Shown: piece after piece, positions 10,642 through 29,910 of the stretch
How the letters are laid out: every line of letters starts with the position of its first letter
Position numbering within the stretch: position 1 is the stretch's first letter
Source of the DNA: a virus
Length of the DNA: 32,270 nucleotides
Direction: 5' to 3' (one strand)
Virus record (IMG/VR): IMGVR_UViG_3300021389_000089
Span: 1-32,270 of that record
The notes under the pieces: generated by a model
Told to the model about the DNA's origin: nothing
What the model saw: only the letters and a program-made list of their open reading frames with translations
Databases searched by the model: none
Translations under genes and position numbers: made by a program

Positions 10642-11544
10642 TTATTCTTCTATCTCGCCAAGCTCCTTGAGCTTGTTGCGAGACCAGCCAAGACCAGCCT
10701 TACCTCCCCACAGCAAGAAGCTAATCGTACCACAAGCCGTAGTGTCGCTTTCGTCGTAGTACTCCTCTGCTCTTGATAGGTAGCTATACATACGCTTAAT
10801 TGTATCTACCGAAAGACCACGTCCGGCTGCGAGGTCCGCACTCCTTTGCTTTCCAACGGCAGTAGCGCACTTGCCTCCGTTCTTTTCGTTAAGCTCTCTA
10901 CCACGCTTGGCGTTGTTTTTAACGCCACTACCATAGTCCGCATAGCTTTCAAGGTCTACCGACTCCAGCTCCTCTACAATCCACTCCATAAGCTCCATAG
11001 CTTCCGCTTCTTGCTTTTGCTGCATTCCCATATTTACCTTGTCTGCAAAGTAGCCCTCGATAGAAAAGCCTTTGACCTTTCCTTCCTTTACAAACTCGTT
11101 CCATACGTCATCGTTGTAGACTTTCATAGATACCATCCACGTTCCAAGCGGAACGTCAAAGCCGTAAGCCTTGCTTTTATCTTGATCGCTTTCTACAATC
11201 CAGCTCTCAACAACGCTTAGGCCTTTTAGCTCGTAGCTATGCTCCAGCGTACTGTTGTTTTGGTTACCTTCCGATAGGAACAGCTCACTTGCCTTGCGAA
11301 CCGTATCACGTGAGAAGTATATGTAGTAATCTTCTTCTTCGTTTCTACGATAGATAGTTTTATTAGGGATAAGAGCTGGGCCCATCAAGACACGCTTCTC
11401 ACCTTTTACTTCTGCAAGTCTAACCTCTTGCTCTTTCTTTAACGCAACGAAGTCTGACTCGATAGCTGGGTACTCCACGATTGAAATCGCTTGTACCCCA
11501 CTAAACATTTGCTCCTCGTCAAGTATTAGCTCTACTATTTTCAC
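10642..11544 (-). CDS. XkdF-like prohead maturation protease, 300 aa
   Basis: The start is GTG at 11544, overlapping the tape measure stop (GTGA). Family hallmarks are the N-terminal EYPAIESDFVALKK, the STLEHSYELKG segment with His102, and YGFDVPLGTWMVSMKVYNDD leading into VKGFSIEGYFADK with Ser161. In HK97-type proteases a His and a Ser in such positions form the catalytic core, so His102/Ser161 are the likely catalytic pair. The C-terminal third (about 205-300) is a separate domain with NAKRGRELNEKNGGKCATAV and WGGKAGLGWSRNKL, known to me from related phage proteases but of unknown role. It is expected to cleave scaffold and capsid N-termini during maturation. Confidence 0.82.
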   Translation of the reverse strand: MKIVELILDEEQMFSGVQAISIVEYPAIESDFVALKKEQEVRLAEVKGEKRVLMGPALIPNKTIYRRNEEEDYYIYFSRDTVRKASELFLSEGNQNNSTLEHSYELKGLSVVESWIVESDQDKSKAYGFDVPLGTWMVSMKVYNDDVWNEFVKEGKVKGFSIEGYFADKVNMGMQQKQEAEAMELMEWIVEELESVDLESYADYGSGVKNNAKRGRELNEKNGGKCATAVGKQRSADLAAGRGLSVDTIKRMYSYLSRAEEYYDESDTTACGTISFLLWGGKAGLGWSRNKLKELGEIEE

Positions 11545-13409
11545 AATGTTGCTGATTTAATTCGGTTTCTATCTAATTCTTGTTGGCTTGTTACATCTCC
11601 TCCTACAACATACGCCCTTAGTGGCGTTTTTGAAAGGCTTTCTGCAATAACATTTGCACCACTTGAGCCAACAACATTAAAGCTTGGTGCCATATTGTTA
11701 GCTGGCGCACCTGAGCTTGATGCGGAGGTGGTGCTTGGTGGCGTTGAGCTTTCAAATTGCTGGCTTTGTATCTGCTTTAGCTGCGCTATACCAAAGGCCG
11801 TAGCAAGACCAGCTTGGACGTAAGGATAGGCAGGGAATACAGCGGTAAGCGGAGACTTTTGTGCCGTCGTAAAAGCGTTCTGAGCACCCTCTATCGTTCC
11901 CATTACAACTTGTGCTGATGACAATGCTTTTTGTATTGCAAAGTTACGTCGCTGTTGCTCCTCACTTTCTCCGGCAAAGGCATCACTCAATGCTCGTAGT
12001 GCAGCAAAGCTATCTTGTACCATTGCGTAACCAGCATCTCTTATAGCAGCTTCTCTGTCAGCAGTTTCTTGAGCAATTCTAACTTTTTCATCATCTGCTG
12101 CTTTTATAGCAGCCGCATCTTGTTGGCGGTGCCTTTCTTTAATTGCAGCGAGTTTCTGTTGCCTTGTTTCTTCAAGCTCCTCGGTTTCTAAGCCATTCAA
12201 AATAGCAGCAGCTATGAGATCGTCATAGTGCTTGGCTACACTTTCTAGTTCCTTGGCTCTTATTTCTTCTTCGGTGTTAACCTCAGCCTCTGCAATATCC
12301 TTTTTGAGCTGTGCTAATTCTTCAGCAGCTTTTGCTTCTGCATCTAACTTATCTTGTGCGGCTTGAGCTGCTGCATCGGCAGCATCTTTCGCAGCTTGTT
12401 CATCTTCGTTTTTGTTCTGTAATCTGTAACCGTCACGTTGGTTTTTAAGCCTTCTAAGAACAACTTCGGTTGCGGCAATCGCCTCATCTCCTTCTTTGCT
12501 TACCTTTTCGGGATCAAAGCCCAACAGCTTAGCTCCACCTTTTGTAAGGCCTTTTACAAGATTTGTCTTTTCGCTAATTATACCAAGCTTTGCCAGCCCT
12601 TTTGAAGCTAAATCAATAGCCGCTAGCATTGCCGTAATCGGCAGGCTTATGAAAGCAATAAGCCCAGCAGCAATCTTTTGATTGCGCTCGGCAGCAGCAA
12701 TTTGTGATTCTCTTAGTGCCTTCTGTTGTGCAAGTTGGATTTCTGTTTGCTTAATAAGCTCGTTAGTCTGCTGTATCTTGAGATTCCGAATCTCACGTTC
12801 AGTTTTACCAGCTAACTTTAGAGAGTTTTCACTTGCCTCAGTATTCTCTAATGCTTGTTGTGATGCTGCAACAGTTTTTTCTGTTGCTGCTAGAAGGTCT
12901 TTTTGTTCTTTTGAAGCACCACTTATATATCCTACAATGTCATCCCAGTACGCTACAAGCAAACCAACAGCAACTACAAGCGCACCAATACCGGTGGCTA
13001 TGATAGCTTTTTTAAGTGAACTTGCACCGGCTACCGAAGTTTTAAAAGCAACCTTAGCTCCCTTTCCGAAAGCTTTAAAGTCTGTGGCCAGCATCTTGAT
13101 GCGACTTGCCATACCACCAGTAAACTCGTCAAGAACACCAGTAGCTCCATCTACGGTTTCTTGTGTTTCCCTTCCAGATTTATTAAAACGGTCTAACGAA
13201 CCCTTGGCTTTGTCTACGTTTTTAGTTGCGCCCTCTGCAGAGTCACCTACCTTGTCAAAAGAGTTCTTACCTACCTTTGAGGTTTCATCTAAGGCGGTGT
13301 TTGTCTCATCAACAGAACGCTTCAAATCCTTTACTGCGCTATCTACTTGTTCGGTAGCTTCAGCAGCGTTGGTTTGTACGTCAATTATTACTGTTTCTTT
13401 TTGCGCCAT
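11541..13409 (-). CDS. Tail tape measure protein, 622 aa
   Basis: The N-terminal 110 residues are coiled-coil with Asp/Thr-rich heptads (AEATEQVDSAVKDLKRSVDE). Two hydrophobic segments follow, near residues 135-157 (IIATGIGALVVAVGLLVAYW) and 250-275 (LIAFISLPITAMLAAIDLA). A long Ala/Glu/Lys-rich coil (about 335-465) follows. Near residue 485-560 there is a typical tape-measure pattern (FAIQKALSSAQVVMGTIEGA, then AYPYVQAGLATAFGIAQLKQ). At roughly 0.15 nm per helical residue, 622 aa would set a tail of about 90 nm; this is a rule-of-thumb inference. No sheath gene is visible, so a siphovirus is more likely than a myovirus. Confidence 0.9.
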   Translation of the reverse strand: MAQKETVIIDVQTNAAEATEQVDSAVKDLKRSVDETNTALDETSKVGKNSFDKVGDSAEGATKNVDKAKGSLDRFNKSGRETQETVDGATGVLDEFTGGMASRIKMLATDFKAFGKGAKVAFKTSVAGASSLKKAIIATGIGALVVAVGLLVAYWDDIVGYISGASKEQKDLLAATEKTVAASQQALENTEASENSLKLAGKTEREIRNLKIQQTNELIKQTEIQLAQQKALRESQIAAAERNQKIAAGLIAFISLPITAMLAAIDLASKGLAKLGIISEKTNLVKGLTKGGAKLLGFDPEKVSKEGDEAIAATEVVLRRLKNQRDGYRLQNKNEDEQAAKDAADAAAQAAQDKLDAEAKAAEELAQLKKDIAEAEVNTEEEIRAKELESVAKHYDDLIAAAILNGLETEELEETRQQKLAAIKERHRQQDAAAIKAADDEKVRIAQETADREAAIRDAGYAMVQDSFAALRALSDAFAGESEEQQRRNFAIQKALSSAQVVMGTIEGAQNAFTTAQKSPLTAVFPAYPYVQAGLATAFGIAQLKQIQSQQFESSTPPSTTSASSSGAPANNMAPSFNVVGSSGANVIAESLSKTPLRAYVVGGDVTSQQELDRNRIKSATL

Positions 13410-17325: not shown

Positions 17326-17789
17326 TAGCAAACGCTTATTTCAGTGTTGGCTATTGTTATGCTTACACTCATATCCCAACCAGCGACCTGGTTGTCGAAC
17401 CGTTCTACAAAAGGTTCACAGCTTGGAGTGCCTGAGATTTGATACTTGTCCACGTATAGGTCTCCTCTTGATAGGTCGCTCCATAGCTTGTTCGCTGCAG
17501 CCAGCATAGTATTAAGAACGTCTTGCTCGTTGTCGTTCCCACGGAACGGAACGTCTGCCTTAGGATCTTCCTTGTTGAAGTCCACCAGGTCCATAAACAA
17601 TATGTTTAGGTTGAATGTAATAGTGGTGCTTTCAAACGTAGCGTTCTGCACAATGATGTGCGACAAAGGAAAGATAGTCTGCTTTGCTAAATCAACGTCA
17701 AGCAAATCTCCTTCCGTAACCGTGTTGATGCTTGGGTTCGCTTCCAGCGACACCCTAAGCTTTTCAAGTAAATCGTAATACCCTCTCAT
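17325..17789 (-). CDS. Tail completion/tail terminator-like protein, 154 aa
   Basis: The protein (MRGYYDLLEKLRVSLEANPS...) has the helix-plus-sheet layout of small tail terminators, with DFNKEDPKADVPFRGNDNEQ near residues 69-88 and TPSCEPFVERFDNQVAGWDM near 120-139. I recall this family in Bacteroidetes phages next to the gp10-like gene. Its ATG overlaps the stop of the -1 frame chaperone extension by four bases (ATGA), evidence that the -1 frame is translated. Confidence 0.7.
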   Translation of the reverse strand: MRGYYDLLEKLRVSLEANPSINTVTEGDLLDVDLAKQTIFPLSHIIVQNATFESTTITFNLNILFMDLVDFNKEDPKADVPFRGNDNEQDVLNTMLAAANKLWSDLSRGDLYVDKYQISGTPSCEPFVERFDNQVAGWDMSVSITIANTEISVC

Positions 17790-18031
17790 ATCTTTAATAG
17801 TTTTCTTTCTAGTTCACCCTTCTCTTTCTCGAACTCCAAGTACGTTAGAGCGGTGTGAATTGGGAGTCTACTAACCCCTTCAAATTTTGTTGCATCTCCC
17901 TTAGCGAGTGCGTAAAAGCTACTATACCAGCCCCACTTTTTTCCGAAGTTCCCTTCAACAGAGAGGTCCTGATCTCCGGATCCTCTAAATAAGCTGTCAT
18001 ACACTCCAACAAGTCCATCCCTAAACGATAA
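17786..18031 (-). CDS. Tail assembly chaperone, -1 frame extension (gpT-like part of GT fusion)
   Basis: This frame is open from the T9 run to the stop at 17786. It contains a convincing conserved-looking segment, NFGKKWGWYSSFYALAKGDA, then IHTALTYLEFEKEKGELERK. I recall this type of sequence as a coded part of Bacteroidetes-phage chaperones. A -1 slip on T TTT TTT (after codon 161 of the 222-aa gene) would make a 242-aa fusion with 81 new residues. Its stop overlaps the next ATG (ATGA), whereas the zero-frame stop leaves a 55-base gap. The only plausible independent start in this frame is GTG 18004, giving 72 aa; internal initiation is the alternative. Confidence 0.7.
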   Translation of the reverse strand, partial: LSFRDGLVGVYDSLFRGSGDQDLSVEGNFGKKWGWYSSFYALAKGDATKFEGVSRLPIHTALTYLEFEKEKGELERKLLKI

Positions 18032-18513
18032 AAAAAAACCAGCGCACTCAGCGCAACATCAAGTGGCAGTTGTTTCATTAGGTCTGCGTACTTGTCAGTT
18101 CCATCGTATTCTTCTATATCGTAGTAATCTCCTGCATAGGTTACGACTGGTCGGTATAGCACAGCCATAACCCGGTGCATATTCTTCCAGTCGGTTATGT
18201 TGCTATCTATGTCCGTAAACTCTCCAAGGCTAATCTGCTCAAGGTTTGGTACAAAACCAAACTCACGCTTTCTAAGCTTGGTTCTCATTACGAGCTGGGG
18301 CTTGGTTTGCAAATAGGAATATATACGATTAGAAAGCTCCCTAACCTTGTTATATGGCATTCTATCGACAAGTATCAAAGGCACGTTGCAAAATATCTCA
18401 ACACACTTCTGTGCTAAGAACATATCGTCCTCGCTCTGCAAGGCGAGGAACTTCTGATACTGCTCTAGCTTAATATCGTGTAGCCCCTCCGGAACAATGA
18501 TTTCAATTTCCAT
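17845..18513 (-). CDS. Tail assembly chaperone, zero-frame product (gpG-like), 222 aa
   Basis: The helical protein (MEIEIIVPEGLHDIKLEQYQ...) sits between terminase and the tail genes. Residues 1-161 are shared with the putative frameshift product; 162-222 (YRLGMDLLECMTAYLED, then IVAFTHSLREMQQNLKGL) are specific to this frame. Chaperones of the lambda gpG/gpGT type coat the tape measure and recruit tail tube subunits, usually in two forms made by programmed frameshifting. The zero-frame C-terminus overlaps almost entirely with the -1 frame, whereas in lambda the T part mostly extends past G. Confidence 0.7.
   Translation of the reverse strand: MEIEIIVPEGLHDIKLEQYQKFLALQSEDDMFLAQKCVEIFCNVPLILVDRMPYNKVRELSNRIYSYLQTKPQLVMRTKLRKREFGFVPNLEQISLGEFTDIDSNITDWKNMHRVMAVLYRPVVTYAGDYYDIEEYDGTDKYADLMKQLPLDVALSALVFFYRLGMDLLECMTAYLEDPEIRTSLLKGTSEKSGAGIVAFTHSLREMQQNLKGLVDSQFTPL
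18030..18038 (-). promoter_or_regulatory. Slippery T9 run, candidate -1 ribosomal frameshift site
   Basis: On the minus strand the zero-frame codons are GTT TTT TTT TAT. The heptamer T TTT TTT allows perfect re-pairing of both tRNAs after a -1 slip, leading into TTA TCG TTT AGG. The new frame stays open for 81 codons and ends coupled to the next gene. I did not identify a clear downstream pseudoknot by eye. Confidence 0.65.
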
Positions 18514-18528
18514 ATTAAAGTAACGGTT

Positions 18529-19692
18529 TTATCTTACTGCGTACCTTCCGTAGTTAGGTCTGCTTAGTCTGTTGTATGTAGCGTATCTTGCTGCATCAAT
18601 AGCGTGGTTGAATGCATCGACTGGCTTGTTCAGAACCTTGCCGTTGTAATCTTCAATAAACTTATAGTTGCGCAGCTCCTTGATTAAGTTAACGCTTTGC
18701 TTGGTAACATTCAAGCGGTAGCGTTTCAGCATATCAATACCAGCCATAACCGAATCCCTACCCTTGGCCGTTGGCTTTATGTTCCAGCCGAAAAGCTGGA
18801 GTTCTTTAATTGACTTAGGTTCGGCTGAGTCAGCGAAGATCTCAATGCGCTTGTCAAGGCCAAGCGACTGCAGCTTCGTATGAATATCACGGTTTGTTAA
18901 TCCAGTCTGATACACAAGCTCTTCAAAGTATAAGTCTATGTCCTTGCGGTAAGCCACAACAAGTGTAGTAGGATCGTTTGTAAACCCGAAGTCCATACCA
19001 GCAGCAACAATCGAAGCACCCTCAGGTATCTTTTCTATCTCTTGGTGGGTGAAGATGACAGCCTTGCTTTGACCACGTTCTCCAAGACCGTATATGTTCC
19101 AGTAGTTTTCGTCCGTTTGTTTAAGCCTCTCAATCTCAGATACAATGTTTTCTGATAGGAATGGATTATCAAGGTAAGTAGTTTTGTAGAACTCGGCATC
19201 GTCTCTTGGTATCACCCTATCGTATATCCAGTGATATTCATCAGAAGGATTGTAGTCAATAATAATGCGACCAGTGGTACGCATAATGAGCTGCTGCCAA
19301 TCCTCAAAGTGAAGCTCGTTGGCTTCGTTTATAAACAGCATATCACGCTTACGACCACGAACCTTCTGTGGCTGGTCAAGGGATATAAACTCAATCATAT
19401 TCCCACCTAAGTAATACTCGCTACTGCTTTTGTTGTGATTGTCTGGGTTGTATCTTCCTGCTCGTTCGAGGATTTCAAAGAAATCCCTCATACAAGAAGC
19501 TCTAACTGCTGGAAAGGTTTTACGGCAGATCGTGATTACCTGACCTTTGTTTTCTTCGCGAAGGCAGTAAATCATAAGCCATATAAGAATGTTGTAGGTT
19601 TTGCCGGAACGAGTACCGCCCTGCTGAACTACAATCCTGCTTTGGCTATTTTCAAGGTGCTTGAATACACAATTAGTCTGAAGTGTTGCCAT
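18529..19692 (-). CDS. terL: Terminase large subunit, 387 aa
   Basis: This is the packaging ATPase/nuclease. Walker A is QQGGTRSGKT (Lys31), Walker B is DMLFINEANE with the catalytic Glu at 123, and the coupling motif is TTGRIIIDYNPS (about 139-150). The C-terminal RNase H-like nuclease shows three acidic sites: Asp234 in AGMDFGFTNDP, Asp288 in FADSAEPKS and Asp366 in FNHAIDAARYA. The length is slightly short but complete, and it begins 20 bases inside the small subunit gene, a normal arrangement. It marks the start of the packaging and virion genes. Confidence 0.96.
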   Translation of the reverse strand: MATLQTNCVFKHLENSQSRIVVQQGGTRSGKTYNILIWLMIYCLREENKGQVITICRKTFPAVRASCMRDFFEILERAGRYNPDNHNKSSSEYYLGGNMIEFISLDQPQKVRGRKRDMLFINEANELHFEDWQQLIMRTTGRIIIDYNPSDEYHWIYDRVIPRDDAEFYKTTYLDNPFLSENIVSEIERLKQTDENYWNIYGLGERGQSKAVIFTHQEIEKIPEGASIVAAGMDFGFTNDPTTLVVAYRKDIDLYFEELVYQTGLTNRDIHTKLQSLGLDKRIEIFADSAEPKSIKELQLFGWNIKPTAKGRDSVMAGIDMLKRYRLNVTKQSVNLIKELRNYKFIEDYNGKVLNKPVDAFNHAIDAARYATYNRLSRPNYGRYAVR

Positions 19693-28332: not shown

Positions 28333-29253
28333 TTACAGTGTCAACTGCTCGTCTTTTCCTCGCAGATCCTTTATAAGGTCTATTCCTGCTATGCTAAACC
28401 CTACGTTCCCGGTAAGGCTTCTAAGCACAATAGGTTCCTGCATCGGAGTAGGCCGTCCTCCGGTTTCCATTTCCTTGACCTTGCGAACGTGTAGGTGCGA
28501 GTACATCCAATCCGTAGGGTGTTGGCTGTATCTATGTATCACCATAAAATCCGAAGCCCTATTAACCCACTTACCACCACCTTCAGAGTCCGCAGCCATA
28601 GGCGGTGAGGGGAAGCCTTCGTAAAGCTGTCCTTTCTTGTTGCTTGTTCTCAACGCTGTGGTAACAGCGTGGGTATTTAACCATATACTTACGTTGTTCT
28701 TGGAGCAGAACATACGCATCATACTTGCTGCAAGGTAATCATAGTCGTGGCCGGTAAGCCCTGATAGTGCATCCTTATCTTTTGCTAAGGAGTTATATGG
28801 ATCAATAAGAAAGCCTTGGTAGGGAGACTCATCGTGAATCTCTTGTGCCCTATCCAGCAAACTCTTATAGGTAAGCAGCTCACTAATATCCATAATCTGA
28901 AAGAATTGCTGAAGAAAGAGTAGGCTGGTTTCAAATTTAGCCATAGACATCTTTTCAAGCACTTCACCGTTGTAGTATTCCAGCAGCTTCTTCATAATGC
29001 TATACGGCTCATTCTCGCTGGAATATATGAGCCATTTAATACCGTGCTTAAGGCTCAATACAAGCATTAAGTATATGGTCAAGCTAGTCTTTCCGACATT
29101 AGCGTGGCCCAGTATTATGTTAAAGTTCTTTGGTTTGAAGCGCAGGAATTGGTCTATTGCTTCGTGGCCAAACTTGTAGCCTTCTTTGACACGTCCTTCT
29201 CGGACAGCTAGTAAATCTTCGTGTAGTTTGCTATAATCAATCGTATTCTTCAT
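28333..29253 (-). CDS. Replicative helicase/RecA-like ATPase (DnaB-like C-terminal domain), 306 aa
   Basis: I choose ATG 29253 (MKNTIDYSKLHEDLLAVREG); the longer frame uses TTG. Walker A is ILGHANVGKTS (Lys55). A DnaB-like acidic residue lies in YSSENEPY, Walker B is GFLIDPYNSLA near residue 150, and SIWLNTHAVTTAL (about 195-207) contains the sensor-like Asn-Thr-His. There is no N-terminal DnaG-binding domain, so it is the bare motor, as in several phage helicases. No phage polymerase or primase is visible, so it probably works with the host replisome. It overlaps the upstream coil protein by 17 bases. Confidence 0.82.
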   Translation of the reverse strand: MKNTIDYSKLHEDLLAVREGRVKEGYKFGHEAIDQFLRFKPKNFNIILGHANVGKTSLTIYLMLVLSLKHGIKWLIYSSENEPYSIMKKLLEYYNGEVLEKMSMAKFETSLLFLQQFFQIMDISELLTYKSLLDRAQEIHDESPYQGFLIDPYNSLAKDKDALSGLTGHDYDYLAASMMRMFCSKNNVSIWLNTHAVTTALRTSNKKGQLYEGFPSPPMAADSEGGGKWVNRASDFMVIHRYSQHPTDWMYSHLHVRKVKEMETGGRPTPMQEPIVLRSLTGNVGFSIAGIDLIKDLRGKDEQLTL

Positions 29254-29410
29254 CGTCGTTCCCAAGGTCTAGTCGTAGGAGCATCATTTCATACTGCTCC
29301 CTTAATTCACTATATTCTAATTGCAATCGGAAGTAATCACCTGCAAGTTCTTTGTAGGCCATATCTTTTCTCCAAAGCTGCTCTTTCAAAAAAATATCTA
29401 ATTCTTCCAT
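29237..29410 (-). CDS. Small coiled-coil protein, 57 aa
   Basis: ATG 29410 follows promoter element F by three bases; the longer frame starts inside the terminator and is rejected. The protein is a single charged helix (MEELDIFLKEQLWRKDMAYK, then LELYRLQLEYSELR-like heptads) with an acidic tail. It overlaps the helicase gene by 17 bases, so it might be a helicase partner or loader; no homology is recognised. Confidence 0.65.
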   Translation of the reverse strand: MEELDIFLKEQLWRKDMAYKELAGDYFRLQLEYSELREQYEMMLLRLDLGNDDEEYD

Positions 29411-29413
29411 AGT

Positions 29414-29443
29414 CAAGTATAAAAAAAAAGGCCGGGTTATCAA
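29414..29443 (-). promoter_or_regulatory. Promoter element F overlapping a terminator hairpin
   Basis: On the minus strand TTG (29443-29441), 19 bases, then TATACTTG (29421-29414), three bases before ATG 29410. The T9 tract (29429-29421) serves as the U-tract of the terminator at 29421-29450 and runs into the -7-like box. The spacing and TAnnYTTG box match Bacteroidetes promoters well. The ACCAACT leader seen at the other sites is absent here. Confidence 0.6.
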
Positions 29444-29450: not shown

Positions 29451-29463
29451 TCTTAGTTTTTTT

Positions 29464-29910
29464 TTAGAAGGGGAGGTCATCTGCTTCCTCCCTCACCGAA
29501 GCCGGAGCTGGTTCAGGTTCTTTAGCCTCTTGCTTTGGCTCGATATTTACCCAGTCATTAAAGATCTCCGCTACCTGCAAAACTTGATTGGCTTTTAGAC
29601 CCATACCGGCCACATACTCCACAGCAGCTTTTAGAGCTACCTGACGAACGATTAACTTGTCTTTGGAAGAACCCCCAGGCCTAGGTGCGTTATAGCTACC
29701 TGAACCTCCTGAGTAGTTTCCATTAGGATTTACACGCTTGAAGCGTGACTTCTCCACGTCATAGGTGTAGTTAAATTCTTCTCCAGTCTTGGGCTCCCAA
29801 GTCTTGGTTAATACTGAACCGCTTTGACCGTTGTCTAGCGATAGCTTGTAAATGTTGAAGTCGTTCCACTTCGTTTCGAACATTACGTCCTTGATAGTTG
29901 CTGTTTTCAT
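29464..29910 (-). CDS. Single-stranded DNA-binding-like protein, 148 aa
   Basis: The N-terminal ~60 residues are beta-rich (MKTATIKDVMFETKWNDFNI, then YKLSLDNGQSGSVLTKTW), compatible with an OB-like fold. A Gly/Ser/Asn-rich linker (62-82) and a helical part (VRQVALKAAVEYVAGMGLKA) follow, and the protein ends EEADDLPF. An acidic tail ending in D-[ED]-[LI]-P-F is the classic SSB C-terminus that recruits replication partners. Sequence-level OB motifs are weak, so the call rests mainly on the tail, layout and place next to the helicase gene. Confidence 0.72.
   Translation of the reverse strand: MKTATIKDVMFETKWNDFNIYKLSLDNGQSGSVLTKTWEPKTGEEFNYTYDVEKSRFKRVNPNGNYSGGSGSYNAPRPGGSSKDKLIVRQVALKAAVEYVAGMGLKANQVLQVAEIFNDWVNIEPKQEAKEPEPAPASVREEADDLPF

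Follow-up and report, generated by a model that had tools for sequence, protein, structure and literature searches.

A two-form gene at the head of a phage tail block, with a conserved nine-T run and two selected C-terminal frames in the same DNA: a putative tail assembly chaperone of probable Flavobacteria phages

Tail chaperones made as two products are a textbook case of ribosomal frameshifting. In phage lambda the overlap between G and GT is short and the slip site is G GGA AAG; in pairs of this type the tape measure protein is bound by the shared domain and the tail tube protein by the extension, and virions lack both products. In phage P2 the E and E+E' products arise by a −1 shift at a site rich in T, and the extension lies in an overlapping frame. 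Phase can also be changed during transcription, as bacterial RNA polymerase slips efficiently at nine A or T residues (PMC5009743), and a run of 9A or 9T whose length is conserved across homologues very likely reflects purposeful transcriptional slippage (PMC1088944).

The gene analysed here lies on the minus strand of the window, that is, the whole stretch of 32,270 nucleotides of viral DNA under study, and its features and neighbours are collected in Table 1. An earlier note on this DNA had described it as a tail chaperone gene in which the same ~180 bases encode two C-termini, reached by a −1 slip on T_TTT_TTT; the T run, the 61 and 81 codons of the two tails, the 222- and 242-residue products and the ATGA overlap were all confirmed when the sequence was re-read. 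The heptamer T_TTT_TTT is in frame at 18037-18031, inside the T run, the two products share an N-terminal part of ~160 residues, and the TGA of the −1 frame (17788-17786) overlaps the ATG of the next gene, at 17789, in the tetranucleotide ATGA (17789-17786). The zero-frame product matched PHROG 32199 (E 3e-18), for which no function is named, and residues 190-233, in the −1 tail, gave a weak match to PHROG 38404 (E 0.046).

Table 1. Features of the recoded gene and of its neighbours in the window
Feature	Position	Strand	Description
Large terminase (upstream neighbour)	18529..19692	minus	ORF; same position in P12024S, annotated there as PBSX-family large terminase subunit
Zero-frame product, 222 aa	17845..18513	minus	ATG 18513 to stop 17845; shared N-terminal part plus zero-frame tail
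Nine-T slippage run	18030..18038	minus	exactly nine T's: G GTT TTT TTT TAT
−1 frame tail	17786..18031	minus	81 codons (18031-17789) plus TGA; joined to the shared N-terminal part it gives 242 aa
Dual-coded region	17848..18030	minus	61 zero-frame codons (~180 bases) overlapping the −1 tail
Next gene, 154 aa	17325..17789	minus	start overlaps the −1 stop (ATGA); conserved neighbour, PHROG 30964 (function unnamed)
Neck/tail-completion-like neighbour, 178 aa	16795..17331	minus	PHROG 29822; weak match to PHROG 5, tail completion/Neck1 (E 0.005)
Tape measure protein	11541..13409	minus	PHROG 24676, tail length tape measure protein (E 3e-17)

An initial search of viral contigs yielded 25 loci, with the T run and both frames in every complete one, and the family was extended by scans with the fused protein, the −1 tail, distant tails and distant whole proteins. 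With a uniform detector, 254 complete relatives were collected, falling into 104 clusters at 80% identity and reaching down to ~26% identity; all 254 retained the run of T's and had the two frames open, a count to be read with the detector's own demand for a T run of at least 7. Incomplete contigs, some divergent loci and one further locus (L082) were missed by its criteria; the divergent loci were found to carry the run when inspected separately, and the stretch that would hold it is absent from the contig of L082. The fused profile matched at least 589 stretches in IMG/VR.

The only isolates among the relatives were the Nonlabens phages P12024S and P12024L, in which the corresponding genes 38 and 39 (PHROG 32199 and 38404) were annotated as two separate hypothetical genes, the latter of 55 residues (12528-12695 in P12024S). 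Separate genes in homologues, an arrangement that would have contradicted the earlier note, are thus found in this annotation only, as an identical T9 is present in the DNA of P12024S and the two frames are open there, sharing the 25 codons of its zero-frame tail, with the −1 frame beginning at the run. Gene 39 appears as a fragment of the −1 tail, and genes 38 and 39 should be annotated as a single recoded gene. Together with a Flavobacterium MAG contig, the Nonlabens (Persicivirga) phages give the available host hints, and the phages of this family are probably Flavobacteria phages; few prophage copies were detected in scans of Flavobacteria and Bacteroidota genomes. Flavobacterium phage 6H gave a weak structural match and was rejected as a relative, having neither the T run nor a matching tail. 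Seven BFVD proteins predicted from single ORFs (A0A516L5A8, A0A6J5SVK3, A0A6J7WDG4, A0A6J5N0W0, A0A6J7WJY4, A0A6J5MY57 and A0A6J5N3F3) matched both the zero-frame and the −1 tail models, which suggests that there may be clades with both parts fused in one frame; the DNA behind these homologues was looked for and not found.

The T run was conserved in length, with nine T's in 92 of the 104 clusters, ten in 10, twelve in one and eight in one, so that 103 of them had at least nine. Further distant relatives, with GGT or AGT followed by TTT TTT TTG, again had nine. This length was kept in all three registers, as its first T falls on codon position 1, 2 or 3 depending on the clade, and losses on one side appeared to be compensated on the other: where one T preceded the core (GGT, TAT), two T's followed it in 6 of 7 clusters vs. 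8 of 97 otherwise (Fisher p 1.3e-5), and where three preceded it (TTT), none followed in 3 of 6 vs. 0 of 98 (Fisher p 1.1e-4), although these 7 and 6 clusters represent few independent lineages and kinship was ignored in the comparison. Among 518 other genes of the same phages (149,132 codons), runs of at least nine T's on the coding strand were never observed (6.0 expected), runs of at least nine A's were observed 4 times (29.9 expected) and runs of eight T's twice (16.8 expected), with the drop located at a run length of 8-9, not 7. A stem-loop or other stimulatory RNA structure was sought downstream of the run in the relatives and none was detected (mean z about 0).

These data favour slippage of the host RNA polymerase, with addition of one U, over a −1 slip of the ribosome, and we put the probability of this reading at roughly 0.6. 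A run held at nine or more T's in every register is not needed by a heptamer, for which seven in one register are enough, and the near absence of long runs from the other genes and of any structure downstream points in the same direction. Caveats apply to this preference: the ribosomal heptamer is in frame inside every T9 run, and the additional T's encode hydrophobic residues in both frames, so that they might be held by protein constraint. In the mechanism that we infer from the sequence, normal decoding would give the 222-residue form, whereas on a fraction of the transcripts the polymerase would most likely slip on T9 and add one U, and this one-base change of phase would lead to the 242-residue form, which ends in the better conserved and helical −1 tail. 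Deletion of one base instead would bring the ribosome to a stop within a few codons, as the +1 frame is closed 0-11 codons after the run in the relatives. The ribosome may also contribute by slipping one base back on the embedded T_TTT_TTT, or this slip may even be the real cause, and both processes could operate together.

Programmed −1 frameshifting by the ribosome, as in lambda G/GT but with an unusually long overlap and with the long run as a by-product of amino-acid constraints, is the strongest competitor of polymerase slippage and has an appreciable chance of being right, though clearly a smaller one. It agrees with the presence of the in-frame heptamer in every member, with the wide occurrence of tail chaperone frameshifting in long-tailed phages (PMC5009743) and with the sole T8 cluster (L209; GGT TTT TTT TCT), in which the heptamer is intact; this cluster provides a natural test of a run-length threshold. 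In contrast, it leaves unexplained why the run is maintained at nine or more with compensation between registers, why the other genes avoid runs of 8-9 much more than runs of 7, and how the slip would be stimulated, as the downstream region was unstructured and the upstream consensus had no obvious Shine-Dalgarno-like element. The −1 slip on T_TTT_TTT that the earlier note had proposed is thus retained as to its site, present everywhere, while the length of the run favours transcriptional slippage as its cause.

Whatever the slipping machine, the presence of two open frames after the run is real and beyond chance. When the −1 peptide of the window sequence was fixed and its synonymous codons were resampled, the zero frame was open in 0.9% of the draws, and the median across 96 relatives was 0.85%; in the reverse case, with the zero-frame peptide fixed, the −1 frame was open in 0.15% (median). 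Under a milder null, in which the codons of each sequence were permuted, the zero frame was open in 4% (median). Among the relatives, the zero-frame tail varied between 25 and 79 codons, whereas the −1 tail kept a strongly conserved motif, FFLxFRxR...FGxKWGWYxSxYxLAxGD...FEKxKxxLE. The zero-frame tail is nearly as long as the −1 tail in some loci (79 vs. 85 codons in L125; 72 vs. 82 in L140 and L152), so that there the −1 extension is read in both frames over almost all of its length.

The pattern of substitution in the overlap was analysed in pairs of relatives. In 44 non-overlapping pairs, the usual excess of third-position changes was missing from the overlap, where −1 positions 1, 2 and 3 differed at 0.122, 0.074 and 0.152, compared to 0.085, 0.057 and 0.266 for the zero-frame positions upstream of it. 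In a four-class count, in which each change is synonymous or not in each of the frames, 33 pairs with 3-20% divergence gave a dN/dS in the overlap of 0.62 for the zero frame (CI 0.46-0.79) and 0.37 for the −1 frame (CI 0.27-0.50), and a second estimator gave 0.30 (CI 0.17-0.56) and 0.18, respectively. Control frames that should be non-coding reached 1.4 upstream and 2.0 downstream in these pairs. When divergence of up to 35% was allowed (all 44 pairs), dN/dS was 0.68 for the zero frame, 0.40 for the −1 frame and 1.4 and 2.1 for the controls, the point estimates of which spanned 1.05-2.1 overall. Under a conservative null (300 runs), in which the −1 peptide was left unchanged and synonymous differences were as many as in the real pairs, 27 stops were predicted in the zero frame (minimum 16), and none was observed in 2397 compared codons. 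Zero-frame identity was 0.795 vs. 0.785 ± 0.003 under this null, a modest amino-acid signal, whereas −1 identity (0.865) was far above the 0.800 of the reverse null. The data support purifying selection on both frames of the overlap, acting more strongly on the −1 tail. Selection confined to one frame, which would have spoken against the earlier note, was therefore not what was found; its claim of a doubly coding stretch extends to the whole family, and its two real tails appear as unequal partners, the −1 tail being the strongly conserved one.

This inequality could mean that the −1 tail alone is functional and that the zero frame, though open, encodes a meaningless extension up to its stop. 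The lower conservation and variable length of the zero-frame tail agree with such a reading, as does its GxG motif, part of which is forced by the WGW of the −1 frame. Nevertheless, it predicts the many zero-frame stops that were never seen, and both confidence intervals for the zero-frame dN/dS lie below 1, unlike the control estimates, which makes it unlikely. Production of the −1 tail as a separate small protein by internal initiation is very improbable, as despite the deposited P12024S annotation of gene 39 and a GTG at 18004 in the window, −1 conservation starts at the T run itself (F1, F2 and F5 invariant, R8 nearly so), upstream of any start codon, and on going further upstream from the run the −1 frame is soon interrupted by a stop.

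The role of the products was addressed through gene order, searches and structure models. Four genes separate the recoded gene from the tape measure gene in the window, and the order terminase, recoded gene, ~150 residues, ~179 residues (neck-like), ~350, ~700-860 and tape measure is conserved between the window and the distant relatives. The 178-residue neighbour matched HK97-gp10_like below the cut-off, and its counterpart in L112 matched PHROG 5 at 1.6e-5. A chaperone name was sought by sequence in Pfam, PHROGs and the PDB, with no Pfam hit, no PDB match and only PHROGs without a function name. AlphaFold models were made separately for the zero-frame form (pLDDT 84) and for the −1 tail (a moderate pLDDT of 72), and fold searches of the PDB returned only helical-bundle look-alikes (Z ≤6.6). 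BFVD structural neighbours named tail assembly chaperone were weak matches. A role as tail assembly chaperone is plausible by analogy, because the gene makes two products and stands first in a neck/tail block that precedes the tape measure gene, and the 222- and 242-residue forms would most likely act together as such a chaperone system. The name given in the earlier note agrees with the two-product design and the tail block; it was not supplied by the searches, and the gene does not lie directly upstream of the tape measure gene.

Other observations were made in the window. Between 5531 and 20020 the order of genes is unusual, as terminase, tail block and tape measure are transcribed ahead of the protease gene, the major capsid-like gene and the portal gene. 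For the protease-like gene (10642-11544; Peptidase_S78_2, XkdF), a second match covering the same region was to a PHROG with the name DNA methyltransferase, which is probably a mislabel. Two more 9-base A/T runs, at 29421-29429 and 29457-29465, are located near each other about the gap that separates the gene at 29237-29443 from the one at 29464-29910.

Taken as a whole, a large and so far unrecognised family of Flavobacteria phages may produce a two-form tail chaperone through polymerase slippage at T9, with separately selected C-termini encoded in the same ~60 codons, a combined proposal that we hold tentatively, at somewhat less than even odds. Annotation can also be corrected in hundreds of environmental phages and in the Nonlabens isolates, which carry the gene as unknown or as two genes, and the locus offers a simple system in which T9 length can be tested against codon identity.

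When compared with described systems, genes 38-39 of P12024S and P12024L are true homologues, also placed after the large terminase. The recoded gene resembles lambda gpG/gpGT in that two products share the N-terminal part, one of them has a −1 extension domain and the gene lies upstream of the tape measure gene; a slippery heptamer fused to a −1 extension was present in all complete relatives, as in lambda. It differs in that ~61 codons are dual coded with both tails selected, in its T9 instead of G GGA AAG, and in that the searches by sequence and fold gave no match beyond the weak BFVD neighbours; also, the lambda pair sits between the major tail protein and tape measure genes, directly upstream of the latter, whereas here the gene directly follows the large terminase. 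It is proposed to work like G/GT, and membership in that family is not claimed. The P2 E/E+E' chaperones differ from it in family and position. In the literature that could be searched, no tail chaperone was described as a product of transcriptional slippage or as having tails that are dual coded. With the Thermus dnaX gene and IS elements (Baranov, 2005) the locus shares a conserved homopolymer of at least nine A or T that is independent of register and rare in other coding DNA, but here it lies in genes of a phage structural block and, after the slip, either frame is long and under selection. If true, family-wide transcriptional slippage with ~60 codons of true dual coding would show that another decoding machine, and tails that overlap instead of lying side by side, can satisfy the two-product logic.
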